A stretch of 34,275 nt of DNA from Hypoxylon rubiginosum (lineage: Eukaryota; Ascomycota; Sordariomycetes; Xylariales; Hypoxylaceae): assembly GCA_902806565.1 (NCBI GenBank), contig CADCXA010000070.1, positions 1-34,275 on the forward strand, given 5' to 3'. The position numbers and the translations under genes were made by a program. Shown piece after piece: positions 16,800 to 34,126 of this stretch. Positions within the stretch are counted from its first letter, which is position 1. Each line of letters starts with the position of its first letter. The notes beneath the pieces were generated by a model, which saw only the letters and a program-made list of their open reading frames with translations, did no database searches and had not been told where the DNA came from.

Positions 16800-19080
16800 C
16801 TTTTTTTATTTAAATTAAATTAACTTAAAAAAAGATTTAATTTTTATAAAAAGCTATTAAAAATAAAACCTTATAAAAAAATAATAAAAATAAATTAAAT
16901 AATTAAAACTAATAAAATTAATATAAAATTAAAATAAATATAATTAATTTTATAATAAAAAGAAATTTTTTAATAAAAATATAAAAAAAGAATTAAAAAA
17001 TTAATAATTTTAAAATAAAATATTTTATATTTTTTATATTTATAGTAAAAAAAAAACCGTTTTTAGTAAAAATTATATTTTTTTTTTATTAATAGTTTTT
17101 ATTTAAATTAAAGTTTTAATTAATTACTAATATTTTAAATATTATTTTTATTTTTTTAAGTTTATTAATATATTTATTATAATTTTTAAAAATTTAAATA
17201 ATATCGTTACTTTTTCTTTTTTTAATATAGTTTTTATTATATAATAAATTATAAAAACTTAACAAATTTATATTTTACTTATAATAATTAAAGTTTTTTA
17301 TTTATTATTATATTTATTTAATATATAAAAAAAATTATAAATAATAAAAAGAAATTTATAGTAAAAGTTAAAATTATTTATTTAATTTATAAACTAAAAA
17401 TAAAAAAAGAAAAAGATTTTAATAATTTATTTATATATATTTTAAAAAATATATAAAAAAATATATTTATTAAAAAGGTTTTTTTTATAAAATATATTTT
17501 ATAATATATAATTAAGTTTTATTATATATATTAAATTAATAAAAAGTAAAAAATAAATTTAAAAGAAAATATTATTATTTATTAGGAAAAAAGTGAAATT
17601 GTTTTATAATAAGTTAATTATTTTTTTAAATATTTAAATACTAAGTTATTTTTAAAATAATTAAAAATATTTATTTTTTATGTTAAAAATTAAAATAAAA
17701 TAAGAACTTATTTAAACTATAAAATTTATTAAAAATTTAAAAAAAAAAACAAGGTATAAAATTAAACAAAAAAATTATTAACATAAATATTAAAAACACT
17801 TATAAAAAGTTATATAATAAAAAGAAAAAAATAAAATTAAAATTATTTTTAAAAAAAGAAATTAATAATTAGTGGCTTTAAATAAATAAATTAAAATTAA
17901 ATAAGTTTAAAATTATTATTTTATTTAAAAAAAACTTAATTAAATTCTTTTTTATTAATAAAAATTTAATAAAAGTTAAATTAATAAATATTTACTTAAA
18001 AAAAATTAAATAAAAAAAAAATTAAATATAAAACTTATTATTTATTAAAATTAAGTTTTAATAAAATAAATATATAAAAGTTAAATTAAAAAAAATTAAT
18101 TTTATAAAATTAAAAATAAAGGAAATTAAATTAATAAATATTAAAAAATATATAAAATATATAAAAATTAAATTAATAAAAGTTTTAATTATAAATATTA
18201 ATATAAAAGAAATTAATTTAAAAAAAACAAATATTATTATTATTAATTTAAAAATTATTAAAATATAAAAAATAAAATTAATAAATAATATTTTAATAAA
18301 AAATAATTTAATAATAATTAAACTGTTAAAATATAATATAAAAAAAAGTTATTTTATAGTTATTTTATTATTAAAAATTAATATAAAATATAATTAATTA
18401 TTATTATAATTTTATATATTAAATAAAAATAAATTATTAGTATTAAAAATAACGTTTTAAAATATTAATATAATAATTATTTAAATATATTATTAATATT
18501 TAAATAATAAAGTTATTAAAAATAATATTAATAAAAAATAAATTAATTAAAAAAGCTTATAAGTTATTATTATAAAATCTTTTATATAAAATAAATATAT
18601 TTTTATATAAAATAAAAATAATAAAATTAAAATTTTATATAATAATAATAAAAAAAATTAAAAAAGCTTTTATATATATAAAAAAAATATTTTTAAAAAA
18701 TAATTACAAATTTTAAAAATATTATTAATTATTAATTTTAAATATAACTTAAAATTATTAAATATATATATAATATTTTATAATTAAGAATTTTATTATA
18801 AATATATATATATTTTAAAAAAAAAAGTTAAATTAAAATATATATAATTATAATATAAAAAATTAAAAAATAAATTAAATATTTTAATAAAAAAAAAAAA
18901 ATTTTATATATTATATAAAAAAATAAATATATTTTTAATTAGTTAAATATAAATATATTTATAAATATAAATATTTAAAAAAGTTATAATAAAAAAAATA
19001 TAAAAACTTTTTAAAGTTATTATAAGATTTTTTTTTTATATTATAAATTAAAAAAAAAAACTAATTTATTAAGTTAAAAA
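16800..19080 (+). other. A-rich, T-poor strand segment (fossil purine skew)
   Basis: On the plus strand A greatly outnumbers T, most clearly from 17700 to 18700. RIP converts C to T and G to A, so it preserves the purine/pyrimidine order. An A-rich strand today was therefore a purine-rich strand originally, as is usual for coding strands of genes and transposons. The segment also repeats motifs such as AAATTAAATTAATAAA between 17940 and 18290. No domain can be read through the mutations. Confidence 0.4.
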
Positions 19081-19177
19081 CTGGTTTTATATCGTTTTAA
19101 ACTTTTTTTTTAATTGGCTTTCGTTTTTTTTTTATAAAGTGCGCACGGGCCAGTATGTGGTTGAGGTTTTATTTTCC

Positions 19178-19185
19178 TATTTAAG
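19178..19185 (+). promoter_or_regulatory. TATA-like box in the island
   Basis: TATTTAAG is followed by GC-rich sequence (GCGGCGGGC), an arrangement typical of eukaryotic core promoters and of LTR U3 regions. Transcription would be expected to start roughly 25-35 bp downstream on the plus strand. The reverse complement (CTTAAATA) is also TATA-like, so direction is uncertain. Confidence 0.3.
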
Positions 19186-19218
19186 CGGCGGGCTCCTATA
19201 GAAAAAAAACACGACACA

Positions 19219-19260
19219 ATAACCCTCGTAAACTCGGGCATAACCCTCGTAAACTCGGGC
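19219..19260 (+). repeat. 21-bp exact tandem repeat, two units
   Basis: Units 19219-19239 and 19240-19260 are identical and start ATAACCCTCG. The length is a multiple of three. It lies 33 bp downstream of the TATA-like box. Identical units imply recent duplication or absence of RIP. Confidence 0.9.
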
Positions 19261-19326
19261 ACTCTAGATCCGCGTTCCACCACGCAAGACGGATTTAAAT
19301 CGAGCGCCTCATCGGCCGGGCTTAGC

Positions 19327-19346
19327 GACGTCACTCGATTGACGTC
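19327..19346. promoter_or_regulatory. CRE-like inverted repeat
   Basis: GACGTCA (19327-19333) and TGACGTC (19340-19346) are exact reverse complements separated by 6 bp. Each is a seven-base part of the TGACGTCA element bound by ATF/CREB-type bZIP factors, which fungi possess. Whether it is bound, or controls anything here, cannot be told from sequence. Confidence 0.3.
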
Positions 19347-19470
19347 CCAGTATCACCGACCGATCACACGAGAAAGATCCCGCCAGACAAATCAAGGACC
19401 TGGAAACGTGATTCCGCCTGCCCTTGAGGTTGTGCCGCTTCACTTTTTCCAGCTCCACGTCCACCACGTA

Positions 19471-19800
19471 ACGATTCCGACTATACGAAGAATCTATCAT
19501 AGAGACCACGAAGACTCCTTTACTGGACCAGTCCACAAGACCACGATTCCGACCGTACGACGAATCTATCATAGAGACCACGAAGACTCCTTCACTGGAC
19601 CAGTCCACAGATCCCTATTCACCACACATCGATTCGGACCGTACGAAGAATCTACAAACACACTCGACAACAGATAGATCTTGCGGCTCTTCACTGAGTC
19701 ACCAAGATCCCTATCCACAAGACCAAGATTCCGACCGTACGAAGAATCTACAAAACCTCAACAAAACACCTTCACTCCGAATCGAACCCTAGACCTTCAG
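19471..19800 (+). repeat. Four-copy diverged repeat with a 24-bp core
   Basis: The core beginning ATTCCGACCGTACGAAGAAT occurs at 19474, 19546, 19632 and 19728 (spacing 72, 86 and 96 bp). Units 1 and 2 are near-identical over about 72 bp. Several of their differences are C in unit 2 against T in unit 1 (including TTCACT to TTTACT, a CpA change) or G against A, so mild RIP of unit 1 is possible. Units 3 and 4 share the core and a GATCCCTAT segment but have different spacers. The 86-bp step breaks the triplet phase, which argues against a conserved protein repeat across all four. Confidence 0.85.
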
Positions 19801-19839
19801 ACCGAATCTTCAATTGACCCGATTTTGCGCACGGCCCCC

Positions 19840-19869
19840 GTACGGCACCTTTGCGTACGGCACCCTGGC
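19840..19869 (+). repeat. 15-bp tandem repeat, two units
   Basis: GTACGGCACCTTTGC is followed directly by GTACGGCACCCTGGC, differing at two positions. A CA-rich stretch (about 19870-19905) follows. No function is evident. Confidence 0.75.
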
Positions 19870-19900
19870 AAAGCAACACACAAATCAACACACACACGCG

Positions 19901-20030
19901 CAACAAGAAAAGAGAAAAATTGTCAGTGTTGAATTGATTTAATCAATTGAATTACGAAGGATTTACAAAGGCTTTGGATGGCAATTGCGTCATACCAAAA
20001 AGGAGAAGGAAAAGAAAAAATAGTCAGTGT
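19901..20030 (+). repeat. Two purine-rich tracts each followed by GTCAGTGT, 101 bp apart
   Basis: GAAAAGAGAAAAATT runs into GTCAGTGT (19922-19929), and a longer purine tract GGAGAAGGAAAAGAAAAAAT (20002-20021) runs into GTCAGTGT (20023-20030). Downstream sequences TGTTGAATTG (19927) and TGTGGGATAA (20028) remain loosely similar, and both go on to ATTACG-AAGG or ATTACGTAAGG. A purine tract followed by TG is how a polypurine tract meets the start of an LTR, so this could mark an LTR edge. Alternatives are a diverged 101-bp tandem duplication, or a 93-bp A-tailed insert flanked by 8-bp target duplications. Confidence 0.4.
19932..19948. repeat. Short palindrome AATTGATT-T-AATCAATT
   Basis: Two 8-bp arms are exact reverse complements around one base. 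It lies just inside the first TGTTG start and overlaps the CAATTGAATT that follows. It might be a hairpin or a protein-binding palindrome at an element end. Confidence 0.5.
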
Positions 20031-20067
20031 GGGATAATATGAATAGGGTTATTACGTAAGGTGGCAC

Positions 20068-20090
20068 GTGCGGGGCCCTAGGCCCCGCAC
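20068..20090. repeat. GC-rich hairpin, 10-bp perfect arms
   Basis: GTGCGGGGCC (20068-20077) and GGCCCCGCAC (20081-20090) pair exactly around a CTA loop. This is the most stable hairpin seen in the window and the most GC-rich spot. In RNA it would be a strong stem loop. There is no following U-run that would suggest termination, and bacterial-type terminators do not apply to this genome. It could be a structural feature of an LTR or another element end. Confidence 0.7.
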
Positions 20091-20096
20091 ACAATT

Positions 20097-20114
20097 GCAA
20101 GGATTAAGCCTTGC
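20097..20114. repeat. Second hairpin beside the GC-rich one
   Basis: GCAAGG (20097-20102) and CCTTGC (20109-20114) pair exactly around ATTAAG. It starts six bases after the larger hairpin ends. The two stem loops close the island before the AT block resumes. Confidence 0.5.
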
Positions 20115-20244
20115 GTCACACACTTATACTTAAACTAATCAAAGAGTTAAAGCTTTATTTTTTTCGTAATATTAGTTTTTATCCTTACTTTTATTATTAT
20201 TTTAGTTATATAGCTTTCTTTTTTTTTTTTTTTTTTTTTTTATT

Positions 20245-20890
20245 AATAGTTTTATTTATTAATTTTTTAATTAAAATTAAAAAAATTAAATTTATAAAAA
20301 AAATATTTTAATTTAATAAATTATTAAATTATTTTTAATTAATAATTAAAATATATTTATTTATATAATTAATTAATTATTTTATATAAAAAAAATAATT
20401 ATAAAATATTTAAATAAGTTTTTTTATATTTAAAAAAAAATTATTATTAATATAATAATATTTAATATTTAAAAAATTAATTTTATAAAAAAATTATATT
20501 TTATTAAAAACTTAATATTATTATTATATATTATTTAAATAAATAAAAAAACTAAATTTAATTATTTAAAAATAAATAAGCGTATTTAAATATAAAAAAT
20601 AAAAAAAAAAATTTATAAATTATATATATAATTATTTTAAAATAGTTTATTTTTTATTAATATATATTTATTTAAAATATTATATATATTTTAATTTTAA
20701 TTTTAATTTTTAAATTAATAAAATAATATTTATATATAAATTATATATATAAATTATAAATATTTAAATTTATATTATAATAATTATAATAAAAAGTTTT
20801 TAAATTTAATTTAAATTATTTATAAATATAAATAATTAAATATAATTAAATAATTTATAAAAACTAATAATAAATAATTTTATAAAATTA
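20245..20890 (+). repeat. Repeat family B, copy 1, interrupted by a family A copy
   Basis: The segments 20245-20520 and about 20795-20890 match 21890-22262 in order. Shared landmarks include AATTTAATAAATTATTAAAT, then AAATAAGTTTTTTT, then TTAATTTAAATTA-TTATAAATAT. Between the two segments lies about 270 bp of inverted family A sequence that copy 2 lacks. Differences from copy 2 include C-to-T and G-to-A changes. The original element type is unknown. Confidence 0.6.
20521..20781 (-). repeat. Family A copy b (inverted, inside family B)
   Basis: The reverse complement follows the 29.2-kb copy from its TATTACACAC end to its CACGTTATAAT end. C is replaced by T and G by A almost throughout; AATAAGCGTATTTAAATA keeps one CG. 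It is absent from the matching place in family B copy 2, so it behaves as an insertion. Confidence 0.75.
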
Positions 20891-20929: not shown

Positions 20930-21033
20930 TATATTAATAAAAAATAAGTTATTTTAAAATAATTATATATATAATTTATAAAATAAAAATTTTTATTTTT
21001 TATATTTAAATATATATATTTATTTTTAAATAA
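20930..21033 (+). repeat. Family A copy f (partial)
   Basis: It matches the 3' half of the family A element, from the ATTAATAAAA segment through the TATATATA segment to the CGGACAACC equivalent (here TTAAATAATT). It ends immediately before copy a, giving a head-to-tail arrangement. Confidence 0.5.
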
Positions 21034-21034
21034 T

Positions 21035-21303
21035 TAATATTATAATATAAATTTAAATATTTATAACTTATATATATAATTTATATATAAATATTACTTT
21101 ATTAATTTAAAAGTTAAAATTAAAATTAAAATATACGTAATATTTTAAATAAATATATATTAATAAAAGATAAATTATTTTAAAATAATTATATATATAA
21201 CTTATAAATTTTTTCCTTTTTTAATTTTTTATATTTAAATACGCTTATTTATTTTTAAATAATTAAAACTAGTTTTTTTATTTATTTAAATAATATATAA
21301 TAA
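21035..21303 (+). repeat. Family A copy a (full length, RIP-mutated)
   Basis: It aligns without gaps to 29160-29428 at a constant offset of 8125. By hand count about 60 positions differ, all C-to-T or G-to-A toward this copy except one C-to-A. Examples are GGCCGG to AATTAA, CGGACAACCG to TAAATAATTA, and CAGTGTG to TAATATA. Retained ACG and TTCC show that CG and CC steps were sometimes spared. Confidence 0.9.
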
Positions 21304-21345
21304 TTAAATTTAATTTTTTTATTTATTTAAATAATATATAATAAT
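21266..21345 (+). repeat. About 40-bp tandem duplication at the end of copy a
   Basis: The last roughly 40 bp of copy a (TTTTTATTTATTTAAATAAT and following) are repeated immediately downstream. One unit starts AAACTAG and the next AAATTTAA, again mainly transition differences. Confidence 0.55.
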
Positions 21346-21889
21346 ATTTAAAAAGTTTTTATTTTATTTTTAAAAATAATTAATAATATTTTAAAAAAAA
21401 ACTTTAATTTTAAAGTTTTATTTAATTTAATAAATTAAGATTTTTAATATTTTATTATAGTTTAATAATAAAAGTTTTAAATAATATAATAAAAATAAAA
21501 TAAAAATTTAAATTAATATAAAACTTAAAATTTATTATATATATTATAAACTTTATAATTAAAATTATAATTAAAACTTTTAAAATTTAATTTTAATATA
21601 TTTTTTTTAATTTTAAATTTTAATAAAAAAATATAATATTAAAAAATATTATAATAATAATTATTATTTTATTAATTTATAAAAAAATTTTAATTATAAA
21701 TTATTTTTATTTATATAAAAATAATTATATAAGTTTTAAATATATATAATATAAATAACTTTTATTATTATTTTATAATTATATATTAAATCTTTTTTTT
21801 AATATTTTATATTAATATTATAATTTTAATAATTATTAATAAAAAAAACTTTTAAAATATTTATTATATTTTTAAAAAAAAAATTTAAT

Positions 21890-22262
21890 TAATAAAAATT
21901 TATTTATAAATTTTTAATTAAAATTAAAAAACTAAGTTTATATTTAAAATAACTTAATTTAATAAATTATTAAATTATTTTTAATTAATAATTTAATATT
22001 TTTATATATATAATTAATTATTAATTTTAATTAAAAAAAATTTTATAAAAATTTTAAATAAGTTTTTTTTATATTTAAAATAAAACGTAATGTTTTTAAT
22101 ATAATAACGTTTAATATTTTAAAAATTTATTTAAAAAAAATTTATAATTTATTTAAAAATTAATAATATAATAACAATTTTTTAAGTTTAATTTAAATTA
22201 CTTATAAATATAAATAATTAAATATAATTAAATAATTTATAAAAATTAATAATTAATAATTT
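21890..22262 (+). repeat. Repeat family B, copy 2 (uninterrupted)
   Basis: It is collinear with 20245-20890 but lacks the inserted family A copy, and so represents the empty site. It retains a few more C/G (CTAAG, AACGTAATG, AACGTTT) than copy 1. No coding potential is left. Confidence 0.6.
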
Positions 22263-25200
22263 TAAAATAAAAATAAAAAAACTATATTTTAAAATTATTT
22301 AAAATAAAAAACTTATTAAATTTATAATTAAAAAACGTGATTTTAAAAATAAAAAATAAGGATATATATTTTATAATTATTTTAAAAAATTAAAAAAGTA
22401 ATAAAATTAAAAAAATAATAATTATTAAAATAATAATTTAATAAATATAACATAAAAAATTTAATAAAAAAAAACATTAAATTATAAAAAAATCACTATT
22501 AAAAATAATAAAAATTTTATATTTAATAATTTAAAAGTAAAACATTAATTTTAAAAAATATAAACCTTATTTTAAAAAAGGAATTTTTATTTAAAATAAA
22601 TTTTAATAATATTTTATATACTTTTTTTAAATAAAATTAAATAAATAAGTTTTATTATTTATTTTTATAATAATTAATAATAAATTATTATTAATTATAA
22701 ATAATATATTAAAAAATATAAAAATTAAAAAATATATTTTTATTAATATTAATTTTATAAAATAAACTTAAAAACTTATTATAAATATTATTAAAACTTT
22801 AAATTTAAATTATAATATATTAATAAATATAAAAAAAAATTTATATAAATAATTAATATATTATTATTAATAAATATTTATATTAATAATTTAATAATTA
22901 AATAAATACTGTTAGTAATTATTAATATAAAATTAAATATTATTAATAATAAAAAATAATATAAAAAAATAATAAAAAATATAAATAAAAAGTTTTAATA
23001 AAATATTTATAATTAAAAAAAAGAAAAAAACCTAATATTAATAAATTAATAATTAATTAATTATAAAAAAATAATATTAATATTAAATATAAATATATAA
23101 TATAATTAATTAATTTAAAATATAAAAAAATATAAAACGAAAAATATTAATAATAATAATAATTAAAGAAATAATATAAATATTAATAATAATTTTATTT
23201 TAAAAAATAAATAAGTTAAACTTTAAAAATTAAAATAAATAATATAAAAAAAATTTAATAATAGTTTTTTTTTAAAAAAAAACCACGTTATATTTATATT
23301 TAAATATAAATAAAAAAAGTTATTATTATATATATTATAATATAAAAATTATAAATTAAATATAGTTTTTATTAAAATTAAACTTTTTTATAAATTTATA
23401 AAAATTTTAAAATTAAAAAAACTAATTTTTATAATATTAACCGTTTATTAAAAAATAAATAAAAATATAATAACTATAAATATAATTTTAAACTTTAAAA
23501 TAAAACTAAATTAAAATAATTAATAATATAAATAATATTTATTAAAACTAATATATTAAATAATATAAAAATAAAAAAATAAAGTTTAATAATTTACTTT
23601 TAAAAATAATATAAAATATAAAATATAATTATAATATTTATAATAATAAAATATTAATTATAATATAAATATTATAATATTAAAAAATAAAACTTATTAA
23701 ATTATAAATAATATAATTTTTTTAATAATAATAAATTATTATATTTTAAAATATTCTAATAATAAATAACTTTTTAGTTAATATTATATAAAATAAATAA
23801 AATTTATATTTTTATTAATATATTATTTTATAAATATAAAAATATTAAATAATATATATAATAATTATATTTAAATTAAGTTTTATAATAAAATAAATAA
23901 AATATAATATAAATTTAATTAATATAATAACATTAAAAATATATAAAAAAATAATATATTTATTTATTTTTAATAAATATATATTTATATTTAAACATTT
24001 AAAATAAAATTAATAAATAAATAATTAAAAGTAAATATTATTTATTTTAATTTAAATATATATTATTAAATAATGTAAAATAATAAATTAAATAATATAT
24101 TTTTTATATTTAAAAAACTAGTATTTTATTATAATTAATTAATTATATTTAATATAAATAACTTTTAAATAAAAATATTAATTAAAATATATTTATATTT
24201 AATAATAATATATTTTAAGTAATAAATAAATTTATAAAATATTTTTTATATATTATTAATAAAAAGAATAATTTATTAATATAAATTATTTTATAAATAA
24301 TAATTATTATTAATTTTTAAAAGTTTTTTAGAATAAAAATTTAAATTAATTATATTTTTTATTAATATTATTATAAATATAAATATAAATTATAATAAAT
24401 TTTAAATTTAAAATAAAAATTAATTAATTATAAATTAAAAGATAAAATAAAATATATTATATTTTTAAATAATTATAATAAAAATTATATTTTAAATATA
24501 TTTTAAAAAGTTATATAAAGTTTTTAAGTTTTTAATTAATATAATTAATAATAAAAAATTATAAGTTATTATAAATTTTATAAATAAATTATTATAAACT
24601 ATAAATATTAAATAAAACTTTTTTATTATAAAATATTTTTAAAAAAATGAATTAAAATATAAAAATAAATAAATATTTTTTTTAATATTTTTTTTTAATT
24701 ATTAATTATTATTAAAATAATTATATTATTATAATATTAACGTTAAATAAAATATAAATATTATTATTATATAAATTTATTAATATATTATAATATAAAA
24801 TAAAAAATAGTTTATTATTATTATTATTATTTAATTAAAAAGCTTATATAATAAAATTAAAAAAACTTTTAATTTAAAAATATTTTAATTAAAAAAAAGC
24901 TTTAAAATAAAAGTTTCTTATTAAAAATTAATAAAATAAAACTTTAATAATTATAAAAGAATTATAAAAATAAATAATAAAATAAATTAATTAATATTAA
25001 TATAAGTTAAAATTTAAAGTAAAAATTTATATATATATTATTAAAAGAAAATAATTATAAATTATATTAATAAATCTAATAATATAATTATTAAAAACTA
25101 TTATAAATTTTAAAAATAAAAGATTTATATATATAATAAATATATTAAAAATAAAAACCTAATAATATTTTTTATTAATTAATTAAAATAATATTAAAAT

Positions 25201-25525
25201 ATTTTATTATTAAAATAAATAAATAACAATATATTAATAAATGTAATTAAATTAAATAATATTAAAAAATAATAAATAAATAAAATATTTATATTTTAAA
25301 TAAATTATAAAACATTGAAAAATTAAATATAATAATTAAATTAAAACTTTAATTTAAAATAATATAATATATTAAAATTTAAAATAAATATATTAATATT
25401 ATAAAAATATTATAATAATAATTCAAAAAAATTAAAATTATTAAAAAGATTAAATAAATTTAAAAAAAAACAATAAATATAATAAGTATAATAAATTATA
25501 TAAATAATAATAAACCAGTTTTTTT

Positions 25526-25695
25526 AAAAGTTAAAATTAAAATTAAAATATATATAATATTTTAAATAAATATATATTAATAAAATATAAATTATAAAGT
25601 TTTTTTTATTTTTATTTTTTATATTTAAATATATATATTTATTTTTAAATAATTAAAATTTAGTTTTTTATTTATTTAAATAATATATAATATTT
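25526..25695 (+). repeat. Family A copy d (internal deletion)
   Basis: It begins at the TTAAAATTAAAATT hexamer region and continues to the TTTAAATAATATATAATA end. About 27 bp around the TATATATA centre are missing. Nearly all C/G is gone. Confidence 0.65.
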
Positions 25696-25922
25696 ATATA
25701 TATAATTTATATATAATTATTATTATATAAATTTTAAAATTAAAATTAAAATTAAAATATATATAATATTTTAAATAAATATATATTAATAAAAAATAAA
25801 TTATAATAAAATAATTATATATATAACTTATAAATTTTTTTTTTTTAGTTTTTTATATTTAAATACGTTTATTTATTTTTAATTAATAAAACTTAGTTTT
25901 ATTATTTATTTAAATAATATAT
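25690..25922 (+). repeat. Family A copy e, head to tail with copy d
   Basis: It starts in the ATATATAATTTATATATAA segment and runs to TTTAAATAATATATAATA. It directly follows copy d in the same orientation. ATACGTTTATTTATTT keeps one CG at the same place as the CG in the 29.2-kb copy (ATACGCTT). Confidence 0.7.
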
Positions 25923-26090
25923 AATAAATATATTTAATAATAATATTATTATTAAATATAAAAAATATAATAATTAATTTAATTATTATATTTAATATTA
26001 TTATTAAATTTTATAATATAATATTTAGTTTTTAATAAATTTAAATATTTTTAATTAATTTATATTTTTTAATAAATTTTTATTGTTATT

Positions 26091-26165
26091 TATATATAAA
26101 TAAATATATATAAATAAATATATATAAATAAATATATATAAATAAATATATAAAAATAAATATAT
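26091..26165 (+). repeat. 14-bp AT satellite, about five units
   Basis: The unit TAAATAAATATATA repeats almost exactly. It is simple-sequence DNA with no sign of function. Confidence 0.7.
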
Positions 26166-26633
26166 TTATTATATTAATATTTAAAAAAAATAAAAAAGTT
26201 ATTTAATTAAAGTTAAAAAAAAATTATATAATAAAATATTAATTATTTTTATAATATTTATATATAAAAATAAATATATAAATTATTTAAATTATTTATT
26301 TAATTTATTTATTTAAATTTTATTTAATATAATTATATAAAATTAAATTATAAAAATAATTAATAACTTAATATTATTATTAGTTTTTATTAAATTTATA
26401 TTAATTTATTTTAATGTAAATATTTTTATAATATAATAAAATAATAATATATTTAATATAATATAAAATTAATATAATATAATTTTAAATAATATATATA
26501 AATTAATATTATTTAATAAATCAATTATTAAATAATAAAATGTTTTATAAAAATAAAAACTTTTAATATATTTTTAATATAAAATTAATTTAAATAAAAT
26601 AATTTTAATTAATTATATAAACTAGTTTTTAAA

Positions 26634-26654
26634 GTTACTCGCTTCGCGAGTAAC
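26634..26654. repeat. Preserved CG-rich hairpin in A/T desert
   Basis: The arms GTTACTCGC (26634-26642) and GCGAGTAAC (26646-26654) are perfect reverse complements around TTC. It is followed by CGATATG. Neighbouring hundreds of bases are almost pure A/T. It contains no CpA or TpG, so it offers no preferred RIP target, which may explain its survival. It could be a terminal inverted repeat or hairpin of a small mobile element. Confidence 0.75.
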
Positions 26655-28026
26655 CGATATGTTTTTTTAAAAATAATGTTTTATTTAATAATATTTTTAA
26701 ATAAATATTTATAAATATATATTAATTTTATTTTTAAAAAAAGATTATTTTATTATTATTATTATATTTATATTTTATATTATTTATATTATATATATTT
26801 ATTATTTACTTTTTATATTTAATATTTAATTTAATTTTAATTAATATTATTTATAAATTTAAATTTAAAATGGTTTTTTTTTTAATTTTTAAATATTTTT
26901 AAATTTAATATTTTATAAAAGTTTTATATAATTTTATAAAACTTTATTTATAAATAAATTTAAAATATATATATATAAAAAATATATATAATATTATTAT
27001 TAAAATATATAGTTTTTAAAAAATTAACTTTTAAATTTTTAATATTTAATAAGTTAAATTTAAATTAAAATATTTTTTATTATTTTTATAAATATTAATA
27101 TTTAAACTTTTTATAAAATTAAAAAGCAGTTTTTTATTTATATAATATAATAAATTAATTTATAAAGATTTTTATTTTTATTTATTTTTAAAATTATATA
27201 TTAATTATATATTTATTTATAAATTAATATTTTAAGGTTTAAAGAATATATAAAAGTTTTATAAAAATATAAATTTAAATTTATATTAAGTTTAAATATA
27301 TAAATAATATTAATATTAATTAAATTTTATATTATTTATTTTTATATTAATATTTTATATATTTATAAATATTTTTATAAATTTAAACTTTTATAATTTA
27401 TTTTTTATTATTATTTTATAAAATATTAAACTAAAAGTTAAAAATTAAAATATAAAAACATTTATATTTAAATTTTAATTAATATAAATATTATAATATT
27501 ATTTTTTTAAATTTCAAGGTTTTATTTATAAATAAATATTTTAATTTTATATTAATTTCTTAAAGTTTTTTTATTTATATATAATTATAAATTTAATTAT
27601 AACTTTTTATATTTATTTTAAATAATAAATTATTAAAATTTAAAAATTAATATTTTAAAACTTTTAATTTTAATTTTAAGTTTTTATATATTTTTTATAG
27701 TATTATATATTAGTTTTAACTAAATATAAATTTAAATTTAATTTAATGTTTTATATTTAAACTTTTAAAAATGTTTAAAATTTTAATTTTTATAAATTAT
27801 TTATATTAATTTAAAAAAAACGTATTTTATTTATATTTAGTTTAATTAATAAATAATAAAACTATTATATTTTATATTTTATATATATATTATATATATA
27901 TTTATATACTTATATTTTTAATTATAAAATATTTAAATTTCTTTAATATAAAATCTATATAATTTATTTTATAATATATTATTTTTATTATTTTTATTTA
28001 TTTTATATTATAATGTATTTTATATT

Positions 28027-28750
28027 TTATATATTTTTAATGTTTTTATAATTTATTTTTATATATATTTATATTTTAATATTTATTACTTTTAATATTA
28101 TTAATTTTTAATTTTTAATTTTTATTATATTTTTTAAAAAATGTTTAAATTTTTTCTTTATATATTAATTTTTTAATTTTTTTATATTTATATATATTTT
28201 ATATATTATTATTTTTACTTTAATTTTATATATATATATTAATTTATTTTAATTTATATTATATTTATTTTTATTTTTATTATAATTTATTTTATATTTA
28301 TATATAATTTTTATAATTATTAATTTTATTTTTTATTAAAATATTTAATATATATTAAATATAAAATTAATTATATTAATTATTATATAATATATATATA
28401 ATTAACTTTTTTTTATAATTTTATATTAATTTAAAAATATTAAAAAAATCTTAATAATTTATATTATTTAAAAAACTTCTTTTATATAATTTTTTAATTT
28501 TAATTTTATTATTATTAAAATAAACATTAAATTATAAAAAAAGAAAATATAAATATAACGTAATTTTAAATATTTAATTAACTTATAAATATATTGTTTA
28601 ATTAATTATTTATATTATATTAAATATTTAAATTCTTTTTATTTTAATATTTATATATTTTATTTTATATTATATTTTTATTTTTATTTTAATTTATATT
28701 ATATATATATATATTTCTTTATTTTTTTAATTATAAAATATTTTAAAAAA
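28027..28750 (+). repeat. Family C copy 1 (T-rich)
   Basis: It starts with TTTTATATATTTTTAATGTT and includes a middle part (28303-28605) that also occurs at 30959-31262. It ends in a TTTTATATTATATTTTTATT tail that recurs at 28912-29010 and 29970-30060. Plus-strand T far exceeds A, so the original minus strand was purine-rich. Confidence 0.5.
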
Positions 28751-29159
28751 AGTTTATAAAATTATAAATTATTATATATTTAAAATAAAAAATAAAAACT
28801 TAAATTTATAAATAATATTATATATTAAATATATTAAAATATTTATTATTATAAGTATATAAAATTATATTAAAATTTTAAAAATTATAAATCTTAAAAT
28901 ATTTAAATTTATTTTTATTATTATTTATATTATATTAAATATTTAAATTTTTTTATTTTAAAATTAATATATTTTATTTTATAATATATTTTTATTTTTA
29001 TATTAATTTATTTTTTATAATTATATATTTTAAATATTTTATATTTTTATTACAGTTTATTATAATTAAATAAGGGTTAATATTAAATGAAAATATTATA
29101 TTAAATGTATTTTAAAATTAAATTTAAAGTAAAAAAAATCGTTATAAAATTATAATAAA

Positions 29160-29428
29160 TAATATTATAACGTGGACCTAAATATCTGTGGCTTGCACAC
29201 GTGGCTTACGTATAAACGCCACCCTATTAATTTAAAGGCTAAAACTAAGGCCGGAACACACGTAATATTTTAAGTAAATATATATTAATAAAAGATAAAC
29301 TATTTTAAGGTAGCTATATATATAGCCTGTAAATCTTTTCCTTTTTTAGTTTTTTATACTTAGATACGCTTATTTATTTTCGGACAACCGAGCCTAGTTT
29401 TTTTACTTATTTAAACAGTGTGTAATAA
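29160..29428 (+). repeat. Family A reference copy, nearly unmutated 269-bp element
   Basis: This is a stretch of near-normal composition inside A/T-only DNA, keeping GGACC, TGTGGC, GCACACGTGGC, ACGCCACCC, AAGGCCGG and CGGACAACCGAGCC. It contains many CpA/TpG steps, so it truly escaped RIP rather than lacking targets. At least four other copies and one fragment in the window are RIP-mutated versions (20.5, 20.9, 21.0, 25.5, 25.7 and 33.8 kb). No open frame or clear terminal inverted repeat is present. A 13-bp direct repeat TAATAAATAATAT (29153-29165 and 29423-29435) overlaps both ends and might be a target duplication. It is best described as a short non-autonomous or satellite-like element, possibly a fragment of something larger; the class is unknown. 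Confidence 0.85.
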
Positions 29429-29548
29429 ATAATATAATTTTATAAGTTAAATTATAAAAGTTATAATTTTAAAATATAATTTTAAAATAATTAATTATAA
29501 AATAACTAAGATATTTATAAACTTATAGTTTATAAGTAATTTTAATAA

Positions 29549-33789: not shown

Positions 33790-34050
33790 TATTATATATT
33801 ATTTAAATAAATAAAAAAACTAGGCTTAATTATTTAAAAATAAATAAATATATTTAAATATAAAAAAGTAAAAAAAGAAAAAATTTATAAGTTATATATA
33901 TAATTACATTAAAATAACTTATTTTTTATTAATATTTATTTATTTAAAATATTATATATATTTTAATTTTAATTTTAACTTTTAAATTAATAAAATAATG
34001 TTTATATATAAGTTATATATATAAGTTATAAATATTTAAATTTATATTAT
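33790..34050 (-). repeat. Family A copy c (inverted)
   Basis: The reverse complement matches the 29.2-kb element over nearly its whole length. It keeps CTAGGCTTAA (against CTAGGCTCGG in the reference), AACTTATTTTTTATT and TTTAACTTTTAAATT, so it is somewhat less mutated than copy b. Beyond 34050 the match ends. Confidence 0.75.
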
Positions 34051-34126
34051 TATAATAAATATAAAAAATAATAAATAATTTTATTAATAAATTTTAAAAT
34101 AAAATTAAAAGAAATAACTATTAAAA

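Follow-up and report, generated by a model that had tools for sequence, protein, structure and literature searches.

The closest described counterparts of the locus presented here come from two fungi in which repeats are altered by RIP. In Neurospora, 155 bp of perfect homology can be enough to set off RIP when the repeats are closely placed, and with 220 bp the process is substantially promoted (PMC4858203, in the text available); the efficiency of RIP depends on both the length and the identity of the repeats (PMC12543289, likewise from the portion available). In Podospora, the available part of PMC10787394 describes solo LTRs as less RIPped than those belonging to full copies and considers size, timing, and gene conversion as causes. 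As for Hypoxylon, our literature search for RIP in this genus gave no title on the subject among the matches listed.

The DNA considered in this report, hereafter the window, is the entire contig C70 (34,275 bp) of Hypoxylon rubiginosum, and the genome searched comprises 48.3 Mb in 70 contigs. Within it, the stretch from 28.5 to 30.2 kb contains a sharp GC peak, with 50-bp bins of 0–12% GC outside and 12–38% GC inside a short repeat at about 29.2 kb, referred to below as the 29.2-kb copy. An earlier note on this DNA, made from the sequence alone, had taken this repeat for an unmutated, master-like copy lying beside its own RIP-mutated copies, an interpretation that the analysis described here partly supported. 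The repeat is real and so is the direction of the differences, but the 29.2-kb copy is an ordinary RIP intermediate.

The comparison on which the earlier interpretation was built is confirmed. Aligned without gaps to 21035–21303, the stretch 29160–29428 differs at 64 of 269 columns, where about 60 had been counted by hand, and these are 31 C>T, 32 G>A, and a single C>A; none of them falls at an A or T of 29160–29428, and the RIP polarity thus runs away from the 29.2-kb copy. The remaining copies in the window also differ from it mainly in the RIP direction, as had been claimed: the copy at 20522–20786 (minus strand) by 73 RIP-type, 0 other, and 8 gap columns; that at 33790–34054 (minus strand) by 65 RIP-type and 5 other; a ruined copy at 25674–25926 (plus strand, LTR positions 14–265, with a shorter BLAST match at 25726–25924) by 63 RIP-type, 10 other, and 5 gap columns; and a partial, poorly matching copy at 25458–25680 (plus strand, BLAST match 25523–25595) by 51 RIP-type, 25 other, and 33 gap columns. 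As a control, 300 random 265-bp stretches from the window's first 18.3 kb were compared on the better of the two strands. They scored 96 on average and 135 at most in alignment, whereas the real pair reaches 463 over the 265-bp unit; when such stretches were compared position by position without being aligned, mismatches other than C>T or G>A made up 79% on average and no less than 73%, against 1 of 64 for the real pair, so that the similarity goes beyond what any AT-rich target would offer. Within the window, therefore, the idea of an unmutated master as the source of the ruined copies has two points in its favor, namely that 63 of the 64 differences from the 21035 copy run as C>T or G>A away from the 29.2-kb copy, and that the latter is the least mutated among the four near-full copies present.

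Some other properties of the window are worth recording. Positions 18001–19000 and 21001–29000 hold 2.2–3.8% GC per kilobase, which is under the expectation for loss at CpA only, and 19051–20220 forms a GC-rich island (43.5%) amid ruined DNA. A search with 19130–20130 gave at least 43 matches in the genome (40 of 52 candidates scored), 40 of them inside its first 133 bases, and in eight of nine copies, which were compared over 105–111 bases, all differences are transitions, running either way. In this respect the island would resemble another short repeat lightly affected by RIP. Neither Rfam nor ARAGORN gave a match when run on the window.

Looking beyond the window changes the status of the 29.2-kb copy. 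A DNA search of the genome with this copy gave at least 43 matches (40 of 81 candidates scored), and a second one with C65:11344–11607 gave 38 (38 of 38 candidates scored); the copy numbers are accordingly lower bounds. BLAST over 50 loci and the window returned 69 matches, 49 of them spanning all 263 query bases, and after 11 had been left out as fragments, 58 near-full copies were aligned. An exact 5-bp repeat flanks 33 of these 58, compared with a mean of 3.65 and a maximum of 9 after shuffling, and flank repeats of 3, 4, and 6 bp (5, 6, and 2 observed) stay within the shuffled range (maxima of 9, 11, and 3). This excess at exactly 5 bp fixes the boundaries of the unit, which is a 265-bp LTR with a 5-bp target-site duplication (TSD). 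In the least mutated copy, TTTAA flanks the LTR on both sides, and the LTR itself runs from TG to CA, its ends being TGTTATAG...GTGTGACA. In the window, the TSD register trims the span given in the earlier note to 29163–29427 on the plus strand, with 29.4% GC, between the duplications AATAA at 29158–29162 and AATAA at 29428–29432 (both plus strand); its ends read TATTATAA...GTGTAATA, and the conserved TG and CA are both now TA, as expected from RIP.

From their flanks, 32 of the 58 copies are classed as solo LTRs, of which about 3 to 4 may be chance TSD matches, 11 as 3′ LTRs, and 5 as 5′ LTRs, with 10 left unassigned. With AATAA on either side, 29163–29427 is a solo LTR, an assignment that draws on the family as a whole, given that a 5-bp flank match at a single copy is a chance event of about 6% (3.65/58). 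Three further solo LTRs of the family in the window were assigned in the same manner, namely 21038–21302 (plus strand, 5.3% GC, ATTAA on both sides), which is the comparison copy mentioned above, 20522–20782 (minus strand, 1.9% GC, TSD ATAAT), and 33790–34054 (4.9% GC, TSD TTTAT). Nesting at the 21038 insertion was considered and is not claimed, as the host copy aligned poorly (62 RIP-type, 22 other, and 23 gap columns).

Four same-strand pairs of LTRs measure 6,830, 6,907, 6,908, and 6,926 bp from end to end (contigs C12, C15, C48, and C19), and because their outer TSDs match, full-length elements of ~6.9 kb are present in ruined form. The match is exact for three of the four; the remaining one, on C12, has GAACG intact at its GC-rich border and AAATA at its far end, three RIP-type changes apart, and mispaired LTRs used as controls gave 0 of 12 exact matches. 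Between the LTR pairs, no match was found to the profiles PF00665, PF07727, and PF00078 (integrase, Copia RT, and RVT_1), and the insides, as read near the LTRs, are AT-rich. The two LTRs of one element are identical at the start; in all four full elements, the 5′ LTR now has a higher GC content than the 3′ LTR (0.208/0.056, 0.136/0.091, 0.121/0.098, and 0.098/0.075).

Over the 58 aligned copies, GC content descends from 44.5% to 0.8%, and the 29.2-kb copy takes rank 3, behind copies of 44.5% and 37.0%; two copies in the genome are therefore less mutated than the supposed master. Compared with C65:11340–11604, it differs at 56 columns, with the C:G pair lost in the 29.2-kb copy at 48 and in the C65 copy at 8, without any transversion; a few copies in the alignment contain more transversions, as many as 22 where their rows are ragged. 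When a C:G column is defined as one with C or G in at least two of 55 copies (3 ragged rows of the 58 having been dropped), 122 columns result, of which the C65 copy keeps 110 and has lost 12, C6:2446439 keeps 94 and has lost 28, the 29.2-kb copy keeps 78 and has lost 44, and the 21038 copy keeps 14, with 107 lost and one transversion. The three lightest copies have thus lost 10%, 23%, and 36% of these columns. For the 29.2-kb copy, the loss is 44% if one copy suffices to call a column and 31% if three are required; each of its 78 kept C or G columns is supported by another copy, and some of the 44 losses could represent older C/T variants, if the source elements differed.

These counts dispose of the unmutated master, to which we now attach next to no credence in spite of the polarity seen in the window. 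Two genomic copies retain more C:G, 44 of the 122 columns read T or A in it although two or more other copies have C or G there, both end dinucleotides of the LTR are gone, and a solo LTR lacks machinery of its own. The earlier note had stated that its reading would fall if copies elsewhere in the genome showed the 29.2-kb version to be derived, and this is what the 58 copies reveal. The idea that the ruined copies are its own descendants finds no support either. Its losses coincide with those of the two lighter copies at 4 columns (5.2 expected) and 11 columns (12.0 expected), and the C65 and C6 copies have 6 losses in common against 3.4 expected (P = 0.07). Because common losses are not significantly above the independent expectation, the three lightest copies look like siblings that were probably mutated separately. 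By a cruder residual correlation, the pairs among them come out as the most similar of all (0.82, 0.61, and 0.52), which counts against full independence, and part of their losses may descend from a common ancestor; since the three have in common that they retain columns lost from most copies, we tend to read this ranking as an effect of light mutation and give it little weight. The columns lost in the 29.2-kb copy are also lost more often elsewhere (mean of 92% against 76%), as fits a preference for certain sites.

With the C65 copy as the template, the 29.2-kb copy has lost 15 of 28 CpA, 12 of 31 CpC, 9 of 28 CpG, and 12 of 31 CpT, a CpA bias that is weak in this copy taken alone (15/28 against 33/90 in the other contexts). 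In the other 52 copies the losses amount to 94% of CpA, 78% of CpC, 81% of CpG, and 76% of CpT, so that both marks of RIP are present, namely changes in repeats that are almost exclusively C>T or G>A, and, in these 52 copies, a preference for CpA. General AT-biased mutation, or the slow decay of 5-methyl-C, would account for the eventual loss of most C in every context, and arguably for ruined DNA falling to 2–4% GC per kilobase, below what loss at CpA only would leave. We nevertheless consider either process very improbable in place of RIP, given the CpA preference (94% against 76–81%), the presence of a RID-like gene, and the manner in which the loss stops at the edge of a repeat. The latter is visible at C12:201997–202261, a 5′ LTR with a GC-rich outer flank, in which mutation fades at the repeat edge: losses rise from 2 of 24 C:G pairs in the sixth facing that flank to 19 of 22 in the innermost sixth.

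Regarding the enzymes, matches to PF00145 occur on contigs C31, C12, and C6. The C12 frame, RID-like, carries the PF00145 domain and extends over 731 aa without stops. It has 638 relatives at E ≤ 0.001; among the 120 listed, two are named “RIP defective”, the top relative, labelled Hypoxylon rubiginosum, is 100% identical, and another with the same label is 79% identical. A PDB sequence search with this protein gave 42 matches, all to other cytosine methyltransferases. The C31 frame combines methylase and BAH domains, an arrangement also found in DIM-2. On the strength of these similarities, a RID-type methyltransferase would be the putative agent of the LTR mutation.

The history of 29163–29427 that we propose, and hold to be very probable as a whole, begins with the insertion of a ~6.9-kb LTR retrotransposon, most likely into DNA already ruined by RIP. 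Its inside would then have been lost through recombination between the two LTRs, leaving the solo LTR, which would itself have been RIPped until 31–44% of its C:G pairs, depending on the calling rule, were lost, and would have stalled at that stage. As for the order of these events, the three lightest copies keep 64–90% of the 122 C:G columns within flanks of 7.0%, 4.2%, and 3.2% GC (the last being the 29.2-kb copy, with 300 bp on each side), and are therefore most likely late arrivals in ruined DNA. To this extent the later arrival suggested in the earlier note remains the most likely course, with flanks of 3.2% around an inside of 29.4% GC, although the copy that arrived has not stayed unmutated. 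The TSDs of the 32 solo copies contain 2 G or C in 160 bases, which fits ruined targets; AT-only TSDs are no proof of such a target, because the TSD of the C12 element was itself RIPped, and that element had inserted beside GC-rich DNA. A search for the empty site of the 29.2-kb insertion, with a query of ~3% GC, gave 8,394 AT-rich matches in which no site was identifiable.

Several reasons for the stall can be envisaged; they are not exclusive of one another, and the likelihoods that we attach to them need not add up to one. Most likely, the copy arrived late and passed through few rounds of RIP, and its remaining relatives would be too diverged to pair with it: among the 40 of 81 candidates scored, its best partner has 82% identity over 264 bases. 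RIP needs a minimum repeat identity, and 82% may lie out of reach.

Protection by length would mean that a solo LTR of 265 bp lies below the length limit of RIP and is frozen, the ruined solo copies having been mutated earlier, inside the 6.9-kb element. The three lightest of the 58 copies are all classed as solo, solo copies have a higher GC content than 3′ LTRs (p = 0.035), and the pattern has been published for crapaud of Podospora (PMC10787394, available part). The difference is not significant when the 32 solo copies are set against all 16 linked LTRs (p = 0.21), GC content is under 12% in 25 of the 32 solo copies, which are equally short, and closely placed perfect homology of 155–220 bp is enough for RIP in Neurospora (PMC4858203, in the text available). 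Shortness of the repeat, which the earlier note had offered as one explanation, is hence insufficient alone, and we hold it to be a possible but rather doubtful contribution. Among the solo copies, GC content showed no correlation with that of the flanks (Spearman 0.16, p = 0.37). Gene conversion, with a less mutated copy as the donor, could also have partly repaired the 29.2-kb copy, an option raised for solo LTRs in the available text of PMC10787394. The losses are spread over the entire unit (5/24, 7/23, 13/22, 7/17, 3/14, and 9/22 by sixths) with no clear tract edge, and we regard such repair as very improbable.

Nor is shortness necessary for escape, as shown by a Copia family whose RT stretch is identical over 675 bp in 13 of 13 compared copies, located on C44 (two places), C56, C57, C59, C62, C66, C1, C7, C14, C25, C31, and C42, the open frame being 1,321 aa long in 12 copies and 869 aa in one. 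These repeats are free of RIP, in a genome where old RIP is otherwise massive. A different Copia type is represented by two loci whose RT scores are equal; counting their flanks, they diverge at 374 of 3,723 positions. The identical copies, found even though the RID-like frame is intact, bring in a further reason for the stall, namely a slowing or halt of RIP in this lineage, in which few sexual cycles would have followed the last bursts and late arrivals would have been mutated in part or left untouched. A Copia burst that followed the last cross would look identical, 4 other Copia RT matches among the 21 carry stops and some copies are thus broken, the comparison covers 675 bp per copy, and the identity of the Copia copies is not directly informative on the older LTR family; a slowdown is thus a plausible factor, for which we stop somewhat short of calling it probable. 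More speculative is the stronger claim that the genome records a switch-off, in which RIP or crossing ceased between the burst of the LTR family and that of Copia. It is suggested by the coexistence of graded, stalled LTRs with an untouched Copia burst and an intact-looking RID-like gene, and we consider it rather unlikely.

The value of the LTR family lies in the fact that copies of the same length, graded by mutation within one genome, make the order in which RIP uses the C contexts directly readable, and permit protection by length to be tested against late arrival. They also advise caution, since a GC-rich copy among ruined ones need not be the original.

Compared with the systems described at the beginning, the family shares with Neurospora crassa, where RIP involves RID and DIM-2, the conversion of C:G to T:A in repeats with CpA favored (PMC12543289 and PMC4858203, in the portions available), and the Hypoxylon genome appears to have the corresponding pair of genes, judging by its RID-like frame and its methylase-plus-BAH frame. 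It differs from Neurospora crassa in that all C contexts are finally mostly lost, down to 2–4% GC per kilobase in parts, a depletion that these enzymes would presumably have produced. The likeness to crapaud and grenouille of Podospora lies in solo LTRs of LTR retrotransposons with less RIP (PMC10787394, available part). In that source, as far as its available text goes, most solo or fragment copies have a high GC content and few intermediates occur among the full copies, whereas in the Hypoxylon family most solo copies (25 of 32) have a GC content under 12%, with three others forming a graded series from 10% to 36% loss. The solo LTR at 29163–29427 thereby adds a new example to the known pattern of less-RIPped solo LTRs.
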